Below, piece by piece: positions 129 through 48,896 of a stretch of DNA of 64,000 nt. Where the stretch lies: positions 1 to 64,000 of the forward strand of contig NZ_CP100452.1 in assembly GCF_024227715.1 (NCBI RefSeq), in the 5' to 3' direction. A model generated the notes under the pieces. That model was not told where the DNA came from. It did no database searches and saw only the letters and a program-made list of their open reading frames with translations. Within the stretch, counting starts at the first letter, position 1, and every line of letters begins with the position of its first letter. Made by a program: the position numbers and the translations under genes. The DNA comes from Halomarina litorea (GTDB taxonomy: Archaea; Halobacteriota; Halobacteria; Halobacteriales; Haloarculaceae).

Positions 129-989
129 ATGCTCACGTACACGGTCTACTCCGAGGCCGGCGGGGTCGGGAAGACGACCCTCGCTGCGAACCTCGCGGTC
201 GCGCACGCGCGCACGAACCAGCGTGTGCTCGTCATCGACATGGATCCACAGGACGGGAGCCTGAGCTACCTACTCGACGTGGACACCGACCGCGCGGCGG
301 GCGATGCCGACAACCTCGTTCGCCACCTCATCGGGCGACCGCAGGGCCCCTTCGAGGACCTGGTCCACGAGGCCGAACACGGCATCGACGTGGTGCCCTC
401 GCACAACATGCTCGAACGGCTCACCGAACTCCTGATGAAGACCGCCGAACTGGAGGAGGACACCAGCCCCGACGCGGACTACGAGTTCCCCCAGCACGAA
501 CAGTTGTTCCGGGTGCTCCAGGAGGCCAGCGTGCCGAACGAGTACGACGTACTGGTCATCGACCCGCCCGCGACGGCGGGACCGCACCTCTACAATGCAC
601 TCTACGCCACGCGAAACCTCGTCATCCCCATCGAACTCTCCGGCAAGGGCGAACAGAGCGTCGAGGGCCTGCGCGACCTCGTCGCGGGGCTCGAGGGCGA
701 ACTCGGCATCAACATCGGCGTCCTCGCCGCCGTCCCGAACGAGGTGAAACACACGACCGACCAGCAGGCGTACCGCGAGCGACTGGAGGCGCTCGGCTTC
801 GACGTGCCGGTCGTCATCGGCGACCGCACCTCGATGTTCGAGGGGTGCTGGCGGAAGCGCTGTTCCGCGTTCACCTTCGTCGAGGAACACCGCGACCGGC
901 GACGCGACTACGAGGTCGAGACCCTCGACCAGTTCGACGACCTGGCCGCCCACCTTCACGCGCAGGTCGACATGGAGGTCCGCGCATGA
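129..989 (+). CDS. ParA/MinD-family ATPase (partition type)
   Basis: A 286-residue P-loop ATPase of the ParA/Soj family. The Walker A motif AGGVGKTT lies at residues 10-17 and a DMDPQDG motif follows the second strand; VLVIDPPA is the Walker B-like segment. The usual signature lysine two glycines before the P-loop valine is replaced by alanine. I chose the ATG at 129 because MLTYTVYSEAGG is the normal beginning of haloarchaeal relatives; an in-frame ATG at 72 would add 19 residues. The start of the next gene overlaps its stop (ATGA), so the two are translationally coupled. Next to an origin and cdc6 it probably segregates this replicon. The upstream repeats are candidate binding sites. Confidence 0.85.
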   Translation: MLTYTVYSEAGGVGKTTLAANLAVAHARTNQRVLVIDMDPQDGSLSYLLDVDTDRAAGDADNLVRHLIGRPQGPFEDLVHEAEHGIDVVPSHNMLERLTELLMKTAELEEDTSPDADYEFPQHEQLFRVLQEASVPNEYDVLVIDPPATAGPHLYNALYATRNLVIPIELSGKGEQSVEGLRDLVAGLEGELGINIGVLAAVPNEVKHTTDQQAYRERLEALGFDVPVVIGDRTSMFEGCWRKRCSAFTFVEEHRDRRRDYEVETLDQFDDLAAHLHAQVDMEVRA

Positions 990-1543
990 AAAGCGGCGCG
1001 GGCGACGACCCCTTCGCCGAGGACGTCGACCGAGAGGAGACGGCGAGAGACGACAGCGAGGACGTCGACGAGAGCGCAGGGGCCGGCGACCACGCGGACG
1101 CCCACGGTGATGGAGCGGTCCGCGCGGACGCCAGCGAGAGTGGAGGGATCGACCACGGCGAGCGACCGTCCGACGGCGGCGGGACCGTGGACGCCGACGG
1201 TCCGGTGAGGACGAACACGGAGGACCCGGAAGACGCGGACGCGGCGGACCCGGAGAACACGGATGCGGTGGACTCGGAGGACGGGGACGGCCCGCGCGAC
1301 GTCGACATCCCGTGGGTCCTCCGCCGCGGGTCGGTCAAGGACGACCGACCGAACGTGACGCAGTTCTTCCTGCGCGACGAGACCGACGCCGCGGAGCGTC
1401 GGTTCAAGAACGAAGTCGAGGACCTCCTCGACACCGACGTCTACACCCTCGACCTGCGGGAGGCCGCCTACCTCGTCGCGATGCGCCACTCTGACGAGGT
1501 CGCCCAACAACTCCGGTCGTGGGGCTACGACTACCTCGATTGA
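986..1543 (+). CDS. Acidic partner protein of the ParA operon
   Basis: A 185-residue protein starting at ATG 986, overlapping the ParA stop by four bases. Residues 1-105 are almost entirely Asp, Glu, Ala, Gly and Thr, with degenerate repeats such as DPEDADAADPENTDAVDSED, and are probably disordered. The last 75 residues form the folded part, with motifs NVTQFFLRDET and DLREAAYLVAMRHSDEVAQQ and a likely helical C-terminus. The position in the operon matches that of a ParB-like adaptor, but I see no ParB or ribbon-helix-helix signature. Function is inferred from context only. Confidence 0.7.
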   Translation: MKSGAGDDPFAEDVDREETARDDSEDVDESAGAGDHADAHGDGAVRADASESGGIDHGERPSDGGGTVDADGPVRTNTEDPEDADAADPENTDAVDSEDGDGPRDVDIPWVLRRGSVKDDRPNVTQFFLRDETDAAERRFKNEVEDLLDTDVYTLDLREAAYLVAMRHSDEVAQQLRSWGYDYLD

Positions 1544-1585
1544 CCCCGCGAGGGTCGTACGAGCGCGGGTGACGGACCACTCACC

Positions 1586-1619
1586 CGTCACGGTACAACG
1601 TCACGGTACAACGTCACGG
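1586..1619. repeat. 13-bp tandem repeat beside the origin
   Basis: The unit CGTCACGGTACAA occurs twice head to tail (1586-1598, 1599-1611) followed by a third partial copy CGTCACGG (1612-1619). It sits between the ParA operon and the first origin box and could be a protein-binding site or simple slippage. Confidence 0.6.
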
Positions 1620-1660
1620 CACCCCCCAGCGCACCCCTGACACACCCCGAGTGACTCCCG

Positions 1661-2208
1661 GCACACCGCGTTTCCGGTGAAACGGGCCGTTCGGAGAGTC
1701 TGTCACCCGAATCAGCCGCCGGACAGTGAGGACGGCGCGTCTCGCCTCCCGATCCGACGCGAGACACACCGTGTTTCCGGTGAAACACAGCGGTACGGTG
1801 TCGCGACGACCAGCCGGTGGCGCCCCGAAGCCGCGACGGGCGAGAACGACTGGACCGCGCGCTGGCGGCGGCGAGGGACGACACACCGCGTTTCCGGTGA
1901 AATCGAACGGCGAGTGACCGGATGACGAGTGACAGAAGAGCGACGGCCGGACACCACGTTTCCGGTGAACGGCGGACCCACGCCCGAGGAGGTATCGAAT
2001 GGGATGGACCTGACCTTTAGACGTGGGACTGTAATGGCACACCACGTTTCCGGTGAAACCGGCGAGCGGCGTCCATCCTCGCCCGAAACGGGTCGTCCGG
2101 AAGTCATCGGTGTGTCCGTTCCGGATGCCGTTATCGCCGTTCCAGCTGAAACAGGGGTTGTCGAAAGGTGGGAGTGGCGAGACACACACACCACGTTTCC
2201 GGTGAAAC
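1661..2208 (+). repeat. Forward array of origin recognition boxes
   Basis: Six copies of an origin box, all on the plus strand, with core TTTCCGGTGAAAC at 1671-1683, 1774-1786, 1891-1902 (ends AAATC), 1959-1970 (one A missing), 2047-2059 and 2196-2208. Each is preceded by a conserved ACACCRCG or ACACCGTG flank, making a box of about 21 bp. A seventh forward copy is at 2776-2788. This is the sequence class bound by haloarchaeal Orc1/Cdc6 proteins. Spacing varies from 68 to 149 bp. Confidence 0.9.
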
Positions 2209-2775
2209 GGGGTTCGGAGGGGTGGGGGGGGCCTGCGGGAACGAGGGCGGAGAGTCGTGACCACGAACCGGGAGTACAGGGTGCCACGGTGGCTCTCCCG
2301 AAGCCGAAACGGCCGAAAACGCGCATCTCGGGGCTGCTTCCCCTCGCCGACTCCCCTGACCACATCTATCGAGGGAGGAGAATCACAGCGAGAGAGATCA
2401 GTTGCCACATCGGCAACTAGTCGACTATCGGCTAGGTTGCAACTATTGCTGTCTGACGTATACTTATGTGCTACCGTATCCAAAAGTCCATTGAGACAAT
2501 CGAAGATAGTACTAAAGAGCGATATCTATCGCTCTTGTCGCTGCCGTTCTCGACTCGAACCTCTCCTCGCGGATTCCGGATGTCGCCTCGTGCTCTCGTC
2601 CTCGGTGGTGGCTCAGCGTTCGTTCGACGTCCGTGGTCGTCCTGCTTTGCCTCAGTCGACAATCGCGGCCGATGGCCATCTCGACCCGTGTACGTGATGG
2701 TTTCGAGCACCGACGAATCGTGGGAGCTAGCGGTCCGGCGGCCCGCAGCCGACTTCGAGGTCGGGACACACCGCG

Positions 2776-2993
2776 TTTCCGGTGAAACCAGACCCCCGTT
2801 TCCTCACCCCCACCCCCCACCCTCACACCCCGTTTCACCGGAAACGTGGTGTGTGTGTGCGGTCTGTGGCTACCGGTGAAACAAAGTCCAAATATTCCTA
2901 TTCGTCCGATATTCTATGCCAAATACCGCCGAGTAGCAAATTATCACTTCCACCAAGCTGTTCAGGGAAACAGTCAAGCCGTTTCACCGGAAA
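2776..2993. repeat. Facing origin boxes around the likely unwinding site
   Basis: One forward box (core 2776-2788) faces two inverted boxes (cores 2832-2844 and 2981-2993, reading GTTTCACCGGAAA), with a forward half-box at 2871-2882. The inverted copies keep the CGTGGTGT flank. The last inverted box ends 16 bp before the cdc6 start, so Orc1 binding there could also repress its own gene. Oppositely facing boxes around an AT-rich stretch are the usual core arrangement of an archaeal origin. Confidence 0.88.
2883..2960. other. Candidate DNA unwinding element
   Basis: An AT-rich stretch, far below the roughly two-thirds GC of the window, placed between inverted origin boxes and just upstream of cdc6. 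It contains AAATATTCC and AAATTATC. Position and composition suggest a duplex unwinding element. The promoter of cdc6 must also lie here. Confidence 0.55.
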
Positions 2994-3009
2994 CGTGGTG
3001 TCCAACTCC

Positions 3010-4209
3010 ATGTCAGACGCCGACGACCTCTTCATCCGGGAGGACCCCATCTTCGTCAACAAGGAACTCCTCGAGATCAGTCACCTCCCCGAGGAGGGCC
3101 GCATCGTCGGCCGCGACGCGGAGATCGGACAGCTGGCCAACGCGGTCAACCCCGCCATCTTCGGCCAGAGTCCGAGCAACGTCCTCATCTACGGGAAGAC
3201 GGGTACGGGGAAGTCGCTCTGTGCGAAGTACGTCTCCGGGCGGCTCATCAGCACCGCCGAGGAGGAGGGGGTGACCGCGGCGTTCGCCTACGTCGACTGC
3301 GCGCAGGACTCCACGGAGACGCAGGCGGTCCAGACCATCGCGAGCGCACTCAACGACCACGAAACGACGGGAATCAACGTTCCCGACAAGGGCATCTCGA
3401 CGGCGACGTACTACAAGCGTCTCTGGACCATCCTCGACACCTGCTACGACGTCGTGCTGGTCATCCTCGACGAGATCGACAAACTCGACGGCGACGACAT
3501 CCTCATGCAGCTCTCGCGGGCGGGGGAGGCGGGCAAACTCACCGACTGCAAGATCGGCGTCATCGGCATCAGCAACAAGATCAAGTACAAAGACCGGATG
3601 GACGAGCGCGTCAAGTCGAGTCTCTGCGAACGCGAGTTCGTCTTCCCGCCGTACGACGCCGAGCAACTGGGCGACATCATGGCCGCCCGGAGCGACGCGT
3701 TCCGCGAGGGCGTCCTCGACGACTCGGTCATCCCGCGGGCGGCAGCGCTCGCCGCGCGGGAACACGGTGACGCGCGGAAGGCCATCGACATCCTCCGGTA
3801 CGCGGGCGAGATCGCCCAGTCGACGGGCGCGGACGTGGTCCGCGAGGAGTTCGTCGTCCAGGCGCGCGAACGGGCCGAGACCGACCGCTTCCGCGAACTC
3901 ATCCGCGGGTCGACGCCCCACTCGCGGTACATCCTGCAGGCGCTCACGGTGCTCTCGCTCAACGAGGGCGACGACGAGGCGTTCCGCACCACGCGCATCT
4001 ACGAACTGTACGAGCAGGTCTGCAGACAGGAGGGGTCGGAGTCCCTCTCGCTTCGTCGGGTCCGCGACCTGCTGAAGGAGCACGCCTTCCTCGACGTCAT
4101 CGAACAGTCGCGGCACAGCGGAGGCAGCGCCGAGGGGAGCTACACGGAACACCGACTGCTCGAGGACCCCGTCGTCGTCCAGAGCGTCCTGCAGGACACG
4201 CTCGACTGA
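3010..4209 (+). CDS. orc1/cdc6: Orc1/Cdc6 replication initiator
   Basis: A 399-residue AAA+ initiator that binds the origin boxes and loads the replicative helicase. Walker A is GKTGTGKS at residues 62-69, Walker B VILDEID has D154 and E155, and GVIGISNK is sensor 1. A C-terminal winged-helix domain follows, ending in EHRLLEDP. Length is normal for the family. I chose ATG 3010 because translation from farther upstream would run through the origin boxes. The gene reads away from the adjacent array, and inverted boxes lie just before and 170 bp behind it, consistent with self-recognition and autoregulation. Haloarchaea carry many paralogues, so the specific number (orc1-n) cannot be assigned. 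Confidence 0.93.
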   Translation: MSDADDLFIREDPIFVNKELLEISHLPEEGRIVGRDAEIGQLANAVNPAIFGQSPSNVLIYGKTGTGKSLCAKYVSGRLISTAEEEGVTAAFAYVDCAQDSTETQAVQTIASALNDHETTGINVPDKGISTATYYKRLWTILDTCYDVVLVILDEIDKLDGDDILMQLSRAGEAGKLTDCKIGVIGISNKIKYKDRMDERVKSSLCEREFVFPPYDAEQLGDIMAARSDAFREGVLDDSVIPRAAALAAREHGDARKAIDILRYAGEIAQSTGADVVREEFVVQARERAETDRFRELIRGSTPHSRYILQALTVLSLNEGDDEAFRTTRIYELYEQVCRQEGSESLSLRRVRDLLKEHAFLDVIEQSRHSGGSAEGSYTEHRLLEDPVVVQSVLQDTLD

Positions 4210-4613
4210 CCGCCGGTCGCCGGCACGCGCCACGGACACACCTCGGTGGAGTCCCGACTCCGACGACCCGTCGACTGCCCTGACTGCCCCCGACGGGTGC
4301 CGACGAGTTCCGGCGGGCCGACGGGTCCAGATGGGTCCAGACGGATTCTGACGGGCCGGCGCAAGACGGGTCGTGGCGATTCCACCGGAAACGCGGTGTG
4401 TCGTAATATCGACGTAAGAATATATCCTAACTAGAACACATTATCGGGGGGATTCAAGTACCGGTGGTCAAACACCACGGGAAGACACCGAGCAGGGTGG
4501 CTGAGACGGCGGGCGTGGCCCGCGTGGGGGTGTCGTCCGCACCGAACGCTCTCTATCCGCACTCGCGAGAATCATCTGAAGACCAAACTGTTTGGGTTCC
4601 CTGTTGATTACCG
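4210..4613. other. Intergenic region with a further inverted origin box
   Basis: Downstream of cdc6 lies an inverted, slightly diverged origin box (4379-4402: TTCCACCGGAAACGCGGTGT), followed by an AT-rich stretch at about 4405-4450 and a second around 4570-4620. Short imperfect direct repeats (GGGTCCAGA twice) occur at 4323-4342. With the array at 1.7-3.0 kb this places boxes on both sides of cdc6. I see no gene here. Confidence 0.6.
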
Positions 4614-4652
4614 ATGCTAGTATCGGATAGAGTGAAGGTCATGGGGATTTGA
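4614..4652 (+). CDS. Possible 12-residue leader cistron before the DUF7344 gene
   Basis: A short frame, MLVSDRVKVMGI, that stops 2 bases before the start of the next gene. An ACCAAAC promoter-like box lies 32 nt upstream of its ATG, the spacing expected for a leaderless start. It fits the window-wide pattern of mini-cistrons ending at gene starts, but is a weaker case because there is a gap rather than an overlap. Confidence 0.3.
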   Translation: MLVSDRVKVMGI

Positions 4653-4654
4653 CT

Positions 4655-5263
4655 ATGTGTGCAATGGCTGCTACGATGGACGCGGAACAGACCGAGGACG
4701 CCGAGGTCGATCCCGACGCACCCGACGCGGCGGCCGAGCCACGGACGCTCCCGAAAGACGAACTCTTCCACCTCCTCCAGAACGAGCGTCGTCGACGCGC
4801 GCTCCAGTTCCTGCGTGGACACGAGGACGGGGTCGTCGACATGCGCGACATGGCGGAGCACATCGCGGCCCTCGAGAACGACGTCGAGGTCGTCCAGTTG
4901 ACCTCCGCCCAGCGCAAGCGGGTCTACGTCGGCCTCTACCAGTGCCACCTCCCGAAACTCGACGAGGCGGGCGTCGTCGACTACGACAAGAACCGGGGGA
5001 CCGTCGCACAGACCCCGCTCTCGGCGCAGCTGACGCCGTACCTCGCCGTCGAGGCGGGCGACGTGCCCGAGACGGAGGAATCGGCAGACCGGACGGTCCG
5101 GGAACTCGTCGACGCCGCGGGACCCGCGGGCGCGGCGACGGTGATCGCCGCCGTGCTGACGGTCGGTGCGGCGACCAGCACGCTCCCGGCAGCCGGGCTG
5201 TGGCTACCCGTCGTCCTCACCACACTGTTCGCCGTCGTGACGCTCATCTCGGTGCTCCGATAA
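4655..5263 (+). CDS. DUF7344 winged-helix membrane regulator
   Basis: A 202-residue protein with a DUF7344-type winged-helix region (about residues 28-122; motifs LLQNERRRRALQFL, HIAALENDVE and SAQRKRVYVGLYQCHLPKLD) and two predicted membrane helices at the C-terminus (about 150-200). These are haloarchaeal predicted transcription regulators tethered to the membrane; targets are unknown. It is one of three paralogues in the window (also at 18.5 and 54.4 kb). I used ATG 4655; internal ATGs follow at codons 4 and 8. It stands alone downstream of the origin module. Confidence 0.75.
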   Translation: MCAMAATMDAEQTEDAEVDPDAPDAAAEPRTLPKDELFHLLQNERRRRALQFLRGHEDGVVDMRDMAEHIAALENDVEVVQLTSAQRKRVYVGLYQCHLPKLDEAGVVDYDKNRGTVAQTPLSAQLTPYLAVEAGDVPETEESADRTVRELVDAAGPAGAATVIAAVLTVGAATSTLPAAGLWLPVVLTTLFAVVTLISVLR

Positions 5264-6109: not shown

Positions 6110-7927
6110 ATGTGTGGAATTATCGCGTGCATCGGATCGGACGACGCGGTCGGTGAGCTGCTGACGGGGCTCGAGAACCTCGAGTACCGAGGGTACGACT
6201 CGGCCGGCATCGCCGTCCAGAACGGCCACGGCATCGCCGTCAGGAAGAAAGCGGGTAAGATCAGCGAGCTCAAGGGGGCCATCGCCGCGGACGTCCCCGA
6301 CGGCAGCGTCGGTATCGGCCACACCCGGTGGTCGACGCACGGTCCGCCGACCGACGAGAACGCCCACCCGCACACGAGCCAGAGCGAGGGGGTGGCCGTC
6401 GTCCACAACGGCATCATCGAGAACTACGAGGTCGTCCGCTCCCGGCTCATGGAGGAGGGGTACGTCTTCACGAGCGAGACGGACACCGAGGTAATCCCCC
6501 ACCTCATCGACCACTACATGGACCAGGGCGACGACGTCGAGACGGCGTTCGAACGCGCCATCGACGACCTGGACGGGAGCTACGCGGTCGCGCTCATGGT
6601 CGACGGGACGGACACCGTCTACGCGGCCCGACAGGACTCCCCGCTCGTCGTCGGCGTCGACGACAGCGGCCCCGAGACGCGCTACTACCTCGCCAGCGAC
6701 GTGCCCGCCTTCCTCGAGTTCACCGACCGGGTGATGTACCTCGAGGACGGCGACGTCGCCCGCGTCACGACCGACGGCATCGACGTCCACGACGCGGACG
6801 GCCCCGTCCAGCGACCGATCGAGACCGTCGAGTGGAACGCCGAGGAGACGGGCAAGGGCCAGTACGAGCACTACATGCTCAAGGAGATACACACCCAGCC
6901 CGAGGCCCTGCGCGGGACGCTCTCCGGCCGAATCGAGGACGGGGACGTCACGCTGGAGGAGTTCCCCGAGGGCACCTTCGAGGGCATCGAGCAGGTCCAC
7001 CTCGTCGCCTGCGGGACCTCTTTCCACGCCGCGAAGTGCGGTGCCCGCCAACTGGTTCGGGCGGGCATCCCCGCGAGCACCTTCCGCGCGAGCGAGTACC
7101 ACGACCTCCAGCCCGTCGACGAACGGACGCTGGTCGTCGCCGTCACCCAGAGCGGCGAGACCGCGGACACGCTGAGCGCGCTGCGTCGCGCCGAGGAGGC
7201 CGGCGCGTCGACGGTCGCGCTGACGAACGTCGTCGGGTCGACCGTCTCGCGGGAGGCCGACGACACGCTCTACATCCGCGCCGGTCCCGAAATCGGCGTC
7301 GCGGCCACCAAGACGTTCACCTCGCAGGTCGCCGCGCTCACGCTCCTGACCCACCGGCTCGCCGCGGACCTGGAGCGGGGGACCGTCCGCGAGGATGCCG
7401 CCGAGTTCCTGGCCGAACTCGAGGCGCTCCCCGACCGTATCGAGGACCTCCTCGGGCGCACGCGCGCGAGCGACGTGAGCGAGAGCAACATGGGGCGGGA
7501 CGCGTACTTCTTCATCGGGCGGGACTTCGAGTACCCGGTCGCGCTGGAGGGGGCGCTGAAGTTCAAGGAGATCACGTACGAGCACGCCGAGGGGTTCGCC
7601 TCCGGCGAACTGAAACACGGTCCCCTCGCCCTCGTCACCCCCGACGCGACTATCTTCGCCCTGCTCACCGGGGACCGCGGCGAGGAGACGCGCAAGAACG
7701 CCGAGGAGGCCCGGACTCGGGGTGCGCGCGTCATCGCCGTCGCGCCCGAGGGGATGGACGTCGGCGAGATGGCCGACGACGTCCTCCGGGTACCCGACAC
7801 CCACCCCGACCTCGCGGGCCTACTGGCGAACGTCCAGCTCCAGCTCGTCTCGTACCACACCGCCTACGGGCTGGGTCGCGAGATCGACAAGCCGCGCAAC
7901 CTCGCGAAGAGCGTCACCGTCGAGTAG
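6110..7927 (+). CDS. glmS: Glutamine-fructose-6-phosphate aminotransferase (copy 1)
   Basis: A 605-residue GlmS, which makes glucosamine-6-phosphate from fructose-6-phosphate and glutamine, the entry to UDP-GlcNAc. Residues MCGI place the catalytic Cys2 at the N-terminus once Met is removed. The glutaminase domain shows GHTRWSTHGPPTDENAHPH and VVHNGIIENY, and two SIS domains follow (CGTSFHAAK, TQSGETADT). The end KPRNLAKSVTVE is the normal GlmS C-terminus. A second full-length copy lies inverted at 52.4-54.2 kb with similar but clearly diverged protein. It is monocistronic and precedes a sulfatase-fold gene. Confidence 0.96.
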   Translation: MCGIIACIGSDDAVGELLTGLENLEYRGYDSAGIAVQNGHGIAVRKKAGKISELKGAIAADVPDGSVGIGHTRWSTHGPPTDENAHPHTSQSEGVAVVHNGIIENYEVVRSRLMEEGYVFTSETDTEVIPHLIDHYMDQGDDVETAFERAIDDLDGSYAVALMVDGTDTVYAARQDSPLVVGVDDSGPETRYYLASDVPAFLEFTDRVMYLEDGDVARVTTDGIDVHDADGPVQRPIETVEWNAEETGKGQYEHYMLKEIHTQPEALRGTLSGRIEDGDVTLEEFPEGTFEGIEQVHLVACGTSFHAAKCGARQLVRAGIPASTFRASEYHDLQPVDERTLVVAVTQSGETADTLSALRRAEEAGASTVALTNVVGSTVSREADDTLYIRAGPEIGVAATKTFTSQVAALTLLTHRLAADLERGTVREDAAEFLAELEALPDRIEDLLGRTRASDVSESNMGRDAYFFIGRDFEYPVALEGALKFKEITYEHAEGFASGELKHGPLALVTPDATIFALLTGDRGEETRKNAEEARTRGARVIAVAPEGMDVGEMADDVLRVPDTHPDLAGLLANVQLQLVSYHTAYGLGREIDKPRNLAKSVTVE

Positions 7928-47932: not shown

Positions 47933-48896
47933 GGACCGCGCGCTCGTCACGGGCGCGACGGGCTTTCTCGGGTCACACCTGTGTGAACGGCTCGCCGCCG
48001 ACGGCTGGTCGGTGACGGCGACGAAGCGGGCCAGTTCCGACACGAGCGCCCTCGACGACGTCGACGTCGAGTGGGTCGAGGCCGACACGCTGGACGAACG
48101 CGCGGTACGCGAGGCCGTCTCGGGCCACGACCGGGTGTTCCACCTCGCGGGCATCGGCCTCCAGTCCGCCGACGCGGAGACCGTCGAACGCGTCAATCGG
48201 GAGGGGACGCGGAACCTGCTCGAAGCCGCCCACGAGGAGGGCGTCGACCGCGTCGTCTTCACGAGCACGGCGGGCACCCGCCGGAAGGCGGGCGGCATCG
48301 CCACCGAGGCGGACGTAGCCGACCCCATCGGGGCCTACCAGCGCGGCAAGGCCGCCGCCGAGGACCTGTGCGACGAGTACGGCGAGCGGGGTCTCGACGT
48401 CGTCACCGTCCACCCCACCTCCATCTTCGGCCCGCGCGACGAGAACTTCACCGGGCGCTTCCTCACGATGGCCAGCGATCCGAAACTCGCCGTCCACCCG
48501 CCCGGGGGGGCGAGTTTCGTCGGCGTCGAGGACGCCGTCTCGGGGACCATCGCCGCCATGGAACGCGGCGGGGCCGGCGAGCACTACCTGCTGGCCGGCG
48601 AGAACCTGCGCTTCGGCGAGGCGCTCGACGTCATCGCCCGCGAGATAGACGGGCACGCGCCGCTCGCGGAGGTGCCGCCACAGATAATCCGCATGGCCGG
48701 ACCGGTCGTCGGGCAGGTCAACGCCCGCCTCGGGACGCGCATGTTCCCGTTCGACGCGGAGATGGCCCGCCTCTCGACGCAGGAACTGTTCTACAGCCCG
48801 CGAAAGGCACAGCGGGAGCTGGGGTACAGCTACCGACCGCTCCGTGAACTCGTCGCTCCGGCGTGGGAGTGGTTCAAAAGCGCCGAAGGTCGGTAG
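47925..48896 (+). CDS. NAD-dependent sugar epimerase/dehydratase
   Basis: A 323-residue extended short-chain dehydrogenase with the Rossmann motif GATGFLGSHL, STAGT and the catalytic YQRGK (Tyr-xxx-Lys). The C-terminal ends LREL VAPAWEWF. It resembles NAD-dependent epimerases/dehydratases and dihydroflavonol-4-reductase-like enzymes; substrate unresolved. The first 8 bp overlap the DUF362 gene. It closes the operon. Confidence 0.9.
   Translation: MAEDRALVTGATGFLGSHLCERLAADGWSVTATKRASSDTSALDDVDVEWVEADTLDERAVREAVSGHDRVFHLAGIGLQSADAETVERVNREGTRNLLEAAHEEGVDRVVFTSTAGTRRKAGGIATEADVADPIGAYQRGKAAAEDLCDEYGERGLDVVTVHPTSIFGPRDENFTGRFLTMASDPKLAVHPPGGASFVGVEDAVSGTIAAMERGGAGEHYLLAGENLRFGEALDVIAREIDGHAPLAEVPPQIIRMAGPVVGQVNARLGTRMFPFDAEMARLSTQELFYSPRKAQRELGYSYRPLRELVAPAWEWFKSAEGR

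Follow-up and report, generated by a model that had tools for sequence, protein, structure and literature searches.

A predicted oriCb-type replication origin on a Halomarina litorea plasmid, with a conserved promoter-like element in its core

INTRODUCTION

Is the cdc6-linked array of repeats near the start of a 94.5-kb contig of Halomarina litorea the replication origin of that contig, and if so, which part of it would be opened by the initiator? We analysed the first 64 kb (hereafter, the window) of this contig, C5 (94,505 bp), which is one of six in a genome of 3.88 Mb. A preliminary description of the window had proposed an origin with an unusual one-sided array of boxes and an AT-rich stretch between inverted boxes next to the gene. 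As an origin, the locus turns out to be a regular member of a known family; its core holds an element that is shared with some other haloarchaeal origin types.

RESULTS

The replicon and the genes around the locus

The 94,505-bp contig is almost certainly a plasmid of the Halomarina type. The nearest layout known is that of the Halomarina sp. BND7 plasmid (95,860 bp, complete and circular), which begins with the same kind of ParA gene, a hypothetical gene and orc1. The circularity of C5 is only inferred, because the contig ends without an overlap. The genes at its start are the following.

129–989, forward strand: ParA-family partition ATPase (an ATG further 5′, at 72, is a possible start; the Halomarina BND7 plasmid has the same neighbour)
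986–1543, forward strand: hypothetical protein, next after ParA (several related plasmids likewise have a hypothetical gene behind ParA)
3010–4209, forward strand: orc1/cdc6, 399 aa, oriCb family (Pfam and NCBIfam; relatives)

Three 13-bp direct repeats of the CTGACTRGT type lie at 3–45, at the contig start and just 5′ of ParA, and are a possible partition site; ParA on Halosegnis and Halorussus plasmids is likewise preceded by short repeats. The glmS gene (6110–7927) is near the oriCb orc1 here and also on two Halorussus plasmids (L127, L131). The BND7 plasmid has a second orc1 gene (L135, 25929–27170). In the 130.6-kb record of the Halomarina PSR21 plasmid (NZ_CP119994.1; L138, L140), ∼40 kb are repeated at an offset of 89,372 bp, and this record is possibly an over-long circular assembly.

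The locus belongs to the oriCb family

Pfam identifies a Cdc6 lid domain and a C-terminal winged-helix domain in the 399-aa Orc1, which also matches TIGR02928 (NCBIfam). It is 91–93% identical to Halomarina proteins, ∼82% to the Orc1 proteins on pNMAG01, pHTUR04 and pHALXA01, and 81% to the Haloferax orc5-type protein. These three replicons carry published oriCb members, and the classification uses an identity of at least 80% (PMC3528665); we matched the members by replicon and not by locus tag. Besides this identity of the adjacent Orc1/Cdc6, we found the family-specific ORB sequence beside the gene, as well as inverted ORBs around an AT-rich region (forward box at 2188, inverted box at 2832, AT-rich 2390–2540 between them). 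The Haloferax and Halorubrum oriCb relatives adjoin rRNA genes, as published for Hvo orc5. From these sequence features, the locus is very probably a replication origin of the haloarchaeal oriCb family (Haloferax volcanii oriC2-orc5 type). The orc5-type origin is active in H. volcanii (oriC2; PMC7776575), and so is the orc5-orthologue origin oriC3-cdc6G of H. mediterranei, for which autonomous replication was shown (PMC4595724).

Ten boxes specific to the replicon

A search of the 64-kb window with the 21-bp sequence ACACCRCGTTTCCGGTGAAAC, allowing up to 3 mismatches, gave ten matches where none are expected (100 shuffles): on the forward strand at 1663, 1766, 1883, 1951, 2039, 2188 and 2768, and on the reverse strand at 2832, 2981 and 4379. 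The same ten boxes are all the matches to CACCNCGTTTCCGGTGAAA (up to 2 mismatches) in the 3.88-Mb genome, in which the reversed control pattern of CACCNCGTTTCCGGTGAAA had no match. The 23-bp form of the ORB is ACACACCRCGTTTCCGGTGAAAC. We looked at its end for the G-string of haloarchaeal origins; in inverted orientation this end is GTGGTGTGTG, which is rich in G without being a run of G, and the relatives have the same end. The boxes are listed below together with one variant.

1661–1683, forward strand: ORB box 1, of the forward (left) array
1764–1786, forward strand: ORB box 2
1881–1903, forward strand: ORB box 3
1949–1971, forward strand: ORB box 4, lowest score (32.6 bits)
2037–2059, forward strand: ORB box 5
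2186–2208, forward strand: ORB box 6, left edge of the proposed core origin
2766–2788, forward strand: ORB box 7, 66 bp before the inverted box
2791–2810, forward strand: ORB-like variant, family consensus ∼AACCCCCGTTTCAWCTGGACC, at a fixed distance to the next box
2832–2854, reverse strand: inverted ORB box 8, right edge of the proposed core origin
2981–3003, reverse strand: inverted ORB box 9, immediately 5′ of the orc1 start (at −29)
4379–4401, reverse strand: inverted ORB box 10, downstream of orc1

All ten boxes named in the preliminary description thus exist, with cores (the TTTCC starts) that were right within one base; the spacings of 68 to 580 bp given there were measured as 103, 117, 68, 88, 149 and 580 bp. 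The box scores range from 32.6 to 40.2 bits in a weight matrix, where score does not equal affinity.

The array has the layout of its family

This weight matrix, built from the window boxes and refined on relatives, finds boxes at nearly all relatives and had no match in 747 kb of reversed control sequence. Among the 83 relatives with enough flank, 319 of the 342 boxes to the left of the inverted pair are forward, and exactly two inverted boxes precede the gene in 78. Seven or more forward (left) boxes are present in 13 of them, and boxes downstream of the gene in 40, so the 7+2+1 arrangement of the window is on the high side, yet inside the family range. In the Haloferax loci, six to eight boxes are forward, and the array extends as far as 1.35 kb upstream. 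A forward box 65–66 bp before the inverted box is often present in relatives, and the gene-proximal box is 20–45 bp before the start codon in all 92 relatives with two right boxes.

Other box types are arrayed beside orc genes on C2, C3 and C4 of the same genome (L029, L004 and L008); each orc gene on these plasmid-size contigs has its own box type in ∼6 to 10 copies. A cluster of 11 ORBs is also published for oriC2 of Haloarcula hispanica (PMC3936714). The view that a long one-sided array is unusual therefore does not hold: the family layout and the arrays of the other replicons show it to be ordinary. By analogy with the H. hispanica oriC2 cluster, the array's role is likely to be one of restraint.

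GC skew places a single switch near the boxes

We computed the cumulative GC skew over the whole contig. The maximum is at 2,291, inside the core proposed below, and the minimum at 48,502, separated by arcs of 46.2 and 48.3 kb; the minimum is 49% of the way round from the maximum, as expected for one bidirectional origin at this locus. The skew amplitude was reached by none of 2000 block-order shuffles, and by 0–3 of 2000 when blocks were flipped at random. The peak position is loose (5–95% range, −1.5 to 4.7 kb), and GC skew may partly reflect gene direction. On the BND7 and PSR21 plasmids, the skew maximum is 369 and 908 bp before orc1, respectively. It is the maximum, and not the minimum, that is at the origin on three Halomarina plasmids (C5; L134–L135; L138–L140). 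On the Halostella oriCb plasmid the skew maximum was not at the origin. Family membership, the replicon-specific boxes and the skew switch together bear out the proposal of a cdc6-linked replication origin.

The same data bear on another reading, in which the boxes are mainly an Orc1 operator or titration array, the replicon starts elsewhere and the locus is a dormant origin. Haloarchaea are known to have orc-linked origins that are dormant or ARS-negative (PMC3528665, PMC4595724), and oriC2D, with its 11 ORBs, is a negative regulator (PMC3936714). However, the orc1 homologue of the locus is the only one found on contig C5, the ParA pair adjoins, and the contig has a single clear skew switch, located here, with the opposite extreme half-way round. 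We consider a dormant origin very improbable.

The proposed core origin and its AT-rich stretch

The core of the origin likely extends from 2186 to 2854, in the order ORB, G-rich arm, AT-rich stretch (∼2390–2540), C-rich arm and ORB; the ten boxes, all of one type, point at its AT-rich centre from either side. The parts of the core, and a second AT-rich stretch outside it, are as follows.

2209–2254, forward strand: G-rich inner flank, pairs with the C-rich flank in a 66-nt inverted repeat
2390–2540, no strand: AT-rich stretch, proposed unwinding element (AT profile; family comparison)
2809–2831, forward strand: C-rich inner flank
2883–2960, no strand: second AT-rich stretch, with an inverted box on either side; not conserved in the family

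The 66-nt inverted repeat (2182–2247 and 2793–2858, 82% complementary) had escaped the preliminary description. One of its arms consists of the box at 2188 with the G-rich flank, the other of the box at 2832 with the C-rich flank. This bias recurs in the family: G exceeds C on the left in 57 of 80 relatives, and C exceeds G on the right in 68 of 80.

The AT-rich stretch at ∼2390–2540, likewise missed earlier, reaches 60% AT in 60-nt windows on a 30-nt grid, and 65% at best. The stretch at 2883–2960 that had been pointed out instead is also real (up to 58% on the same grid, 63% at best). The model attached to it took 2883–2960 as the unwinding site and the array as a set of boxes of graded affinity for the initiator. 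This stretch is AT-rich and flanked by two inverted boxes, and the box scores do differ. On the other hand, it is not conserved: in 53 of 92 relatives, no more than 65 bp separate the two inverted boxes nearest the gene, which leaves no room there for an AT stretch of this type. Moreover, 2883–2960 sits where the orc1 promoter is expected, and the GC-skew peak is instead at 2,291. We regard this model as improbable; 2883–2960 is unlikely to be the main unwinding element and is probably the orc1 promoter region. In 62 of 76 loci (28% expected), the AT maximum of the upstream gap falls on a conserved element, which is described next.

A conserved element in the core

In the gaps from the last forward to the first inverted box, perfect inverted repeats of at least 8 bp occur in 37 of 94 loci, against a mean of 6.3 in shuffles. 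Their alignment brought out a common block, in which a TATA-like stretch is followed after ∼17 nt by an almost invariant A, and CCATTGA begins ∼22 nt 3′ of the TATA-like centre. The element in the window has the following parts.

2454–2503, forward strand: promoter-like block (weight matrix in oriCb loci; sequence-only model)
2462–2468, forward strand: TATA-like ACTTATG, inside the block
2483, forward strand: near-invariant A, −10-like, inside the block
2488–2494, forward strand: CCATTGA, with a predicted start site at ∼2493
2498–2502, forward strand: half-site AATCG, inside the block
2515–2536, no strand: dyad AAGAGCGATA-tc-TATCGCTCTT, whose arms co-vary across relatives

The spacing of the block agrees with the published haloarchaeal promoter motifs, TTWT as TATA box and WW at −10 (PMC4983044). 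A weight matrix for the block has a forward-strand match in 84 of 94 oriCb loci, a number that describes conservation and is not an independent test, as the matrix was trained on the same loci; one reversed control scored above the training threshold. In 11 Haloferax loci, the element is a ∼110-bp island of near-identity in otherwise diverged sequence, and the block is 450–600 bp upstream of the orc5 orthologue in all 11 aligned loci. Upstream of orc1 in Haloferax larsenii (L059), part of the element occurs twice in tandem.

A sequence-only model of the element has two matches in its own genome, in the window (E 2.9e-4) and at C2:174432 (E 0.36), both near orc genes. It has 12 matches in 30 genomes (own included), all beside orc genes, and 39 in 117 genomes of the order, not all independent because some genomes probably overlap the training loci. 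Of 25 new loci that were fetched, 20 have an orc gene in reach and 3 have oriCb boxes without an orc gene in the fetched stretch; one of the remaining two is at a contig end and the other has neither. Overall, 36 of 38 fetched element loci adjoin an orc1 gene or oriCb boxes.

The element is also present without oriCb boxes at seven loci (L142, L144, L145, L149, L165, L170 and L177), whose Orc1 is 45–57% identical to the query or to the C2 paralogue. A similar locus, with a divergent Orc1 and without oriCb boxes, was found by the matrix in Halorussus salilacus. At L029 (on C2), L144, L145, L165 and L170, the element is flanked by other inverted repeat boxes. We therefore hold it highly probable that the conserved element is linked to origins, including those with other ORB types. 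It was absent from the tested orc loci on C1, C3 and C4 of the same genome, and had no match in 53 sampled genomes of the phylum outside the order; an element general to all haloarchaeal origins is thus rejected. It is also unlikely to be the orc1 promoter: its distance to the gene varies from ∼290 to 840 bp, at C2 it points away from orc1, and a Northern analysis in H. volcanii yielded no sign of orc5 mRNA with a long leader (PMC6490895). We found no description of the element in the literature searched, the scope of which excluded most subscription journals.

RNA or DNA site?

The short half-site that follows CCATTGA has the sequence of the dyad's right arm over again and is able to pair with the left one; examples are CTTCGTTG with AAGCAACGA/TCGTTGCTT at L170, and ATCGC with GAAGCGAC/GTCGCTTC at L045. 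Complementarity between the arms is not independent evidence, because elements were chosen for their dyad; the half-site test is independent. In 54 non-redundant dyad elements, the longest match of the half-site to its own right arm averaged 3.87, compared with 2.96 to the right arms of others. None of 20,000 permutations reached this value; the test treats the loci as unrelated, and kinship among them would tend to weaken the contrast. The control with the left arm on the same strand gave no signal in these 54 elements. That half-site and dyad change together between replicons is as expected of a replicon-specific control of initiation or copy number.

In H. volcanii, a small RNA that was verified by Northern blot and is strongly induced in low salt has its transcription start far upstream of orc5 (HVO_1725); the authors left open whether its place beside orc5 is due to chance (PMC6490895). 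We had identified the core element in sequence before this paper came up.

The element could also be a DNA site only, that is, an unwinding sequence with palindromic sites for a dimeric protein and no RNA gene. Consistent with this, the dyad arms have no preference for wobble pairs of the RNA type (G·U mismatches 5, A·C 3), the forward strand folds no better than the reverse strand, the element is at the AT maximum of the gap in most loci, and at other origin types its direction with respect to orc1 varies. The promoter-like spacing (A ∼17 nt and start region ∼27 nt downstream of the TATA-like block, fitting the motifs of PMC4983044), the variable length of the dyad loop and the published small RNA upstream of orc5 argue against it. 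As RNA, the window's dyad region has a somewhat better fold than shuffled sequence (z ∼−2.2); there was no Rfam match up to E = 1 within 1544–4660. On balance, we favour transcription of the element as a short RNA, with some reservation, and give the DNA-only alternative a lower, though appreciable, probability.

DISCUSSION

The explanation that we consider best, and with fair assurance likely, is an oriCb origin of the 94.5-kb replicon with a core element transcribed to a short RNA that influences opening. The local Orc1 would bind the ten boxes; the core at 2186–2854 would open at ∼2390–2540, where MCM would be loaded. The additional forward boxes and the downstream box may adjust the supply of Orc1 by titration, and the box at −29 could let Orc1 act on its own promoter. 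The promoter-like block would give rise to a short RNA comparable to that reported 5′ of orc5 in H. volcanii, and either transcription or RNA folding may influence the opening of the origin.

A role of the element in initiation or copy control is proposed tentatively. Equally tentative is its more specific form: a conserved, switch-like element, either a small RNA or a transcription unit, would be embedded where origins of several haloarchaeal types open. The left arm of its dyad would pair alternatively with the 5′ half-site or with the right arm, and these sequences change together between replicons. What has been described is a core element tied to orc1 genes across many haloarchaea, with different ORB types. 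The position of the H. volcanii small RNA beside orc5 would then very probably be no accident, and a direct test becomes possible of whether transcription or RNA helps to open, or limits, an archaeal origin.

The locus can be compared with four known systems. The oriCb family (Wu et al. 2012, PMC3528665; e.g. Haloferax volcanii oriC2-orc5, pNMAG01, pHTUR04 and pHALXA01) shares the box sequence with the locus, as well as the succession of a forward array, a gap, a pair of inverted boxes and the gene; here, the origin is on a 94.5-kb plasmid and has seven forward boxes, a number inside the family range. In oriC1 of Haloarcula hispanica (PMC3936714), inverted ORBs surround a G-rich/C-rich inverted repeat with an AT-rich centre, as they do here. 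That repeat is a proven enhancer, whereas the one described here is a candidate for this role; the Orc1 and the ORB also differ, and the ORBs are many more in the present locus. In H. hispanica oriC2-cdc6E with oriC2D, as here, the ORB cluster exceeds the needs of the core, and it was shown to restrain initiation, probably by binding Cdc6E (PMC3936714). It is downstream of cdc6E (11 ORBs in 722 bp), while the extra boxes of the present locus are mostly upstream of the core. The small RNA of H. volcanii (PMC6490895), finally, lies far upstream of orc5 and is likened to the window element by position only; its transcript is known, whereas the plasmid element is known from its sequence.
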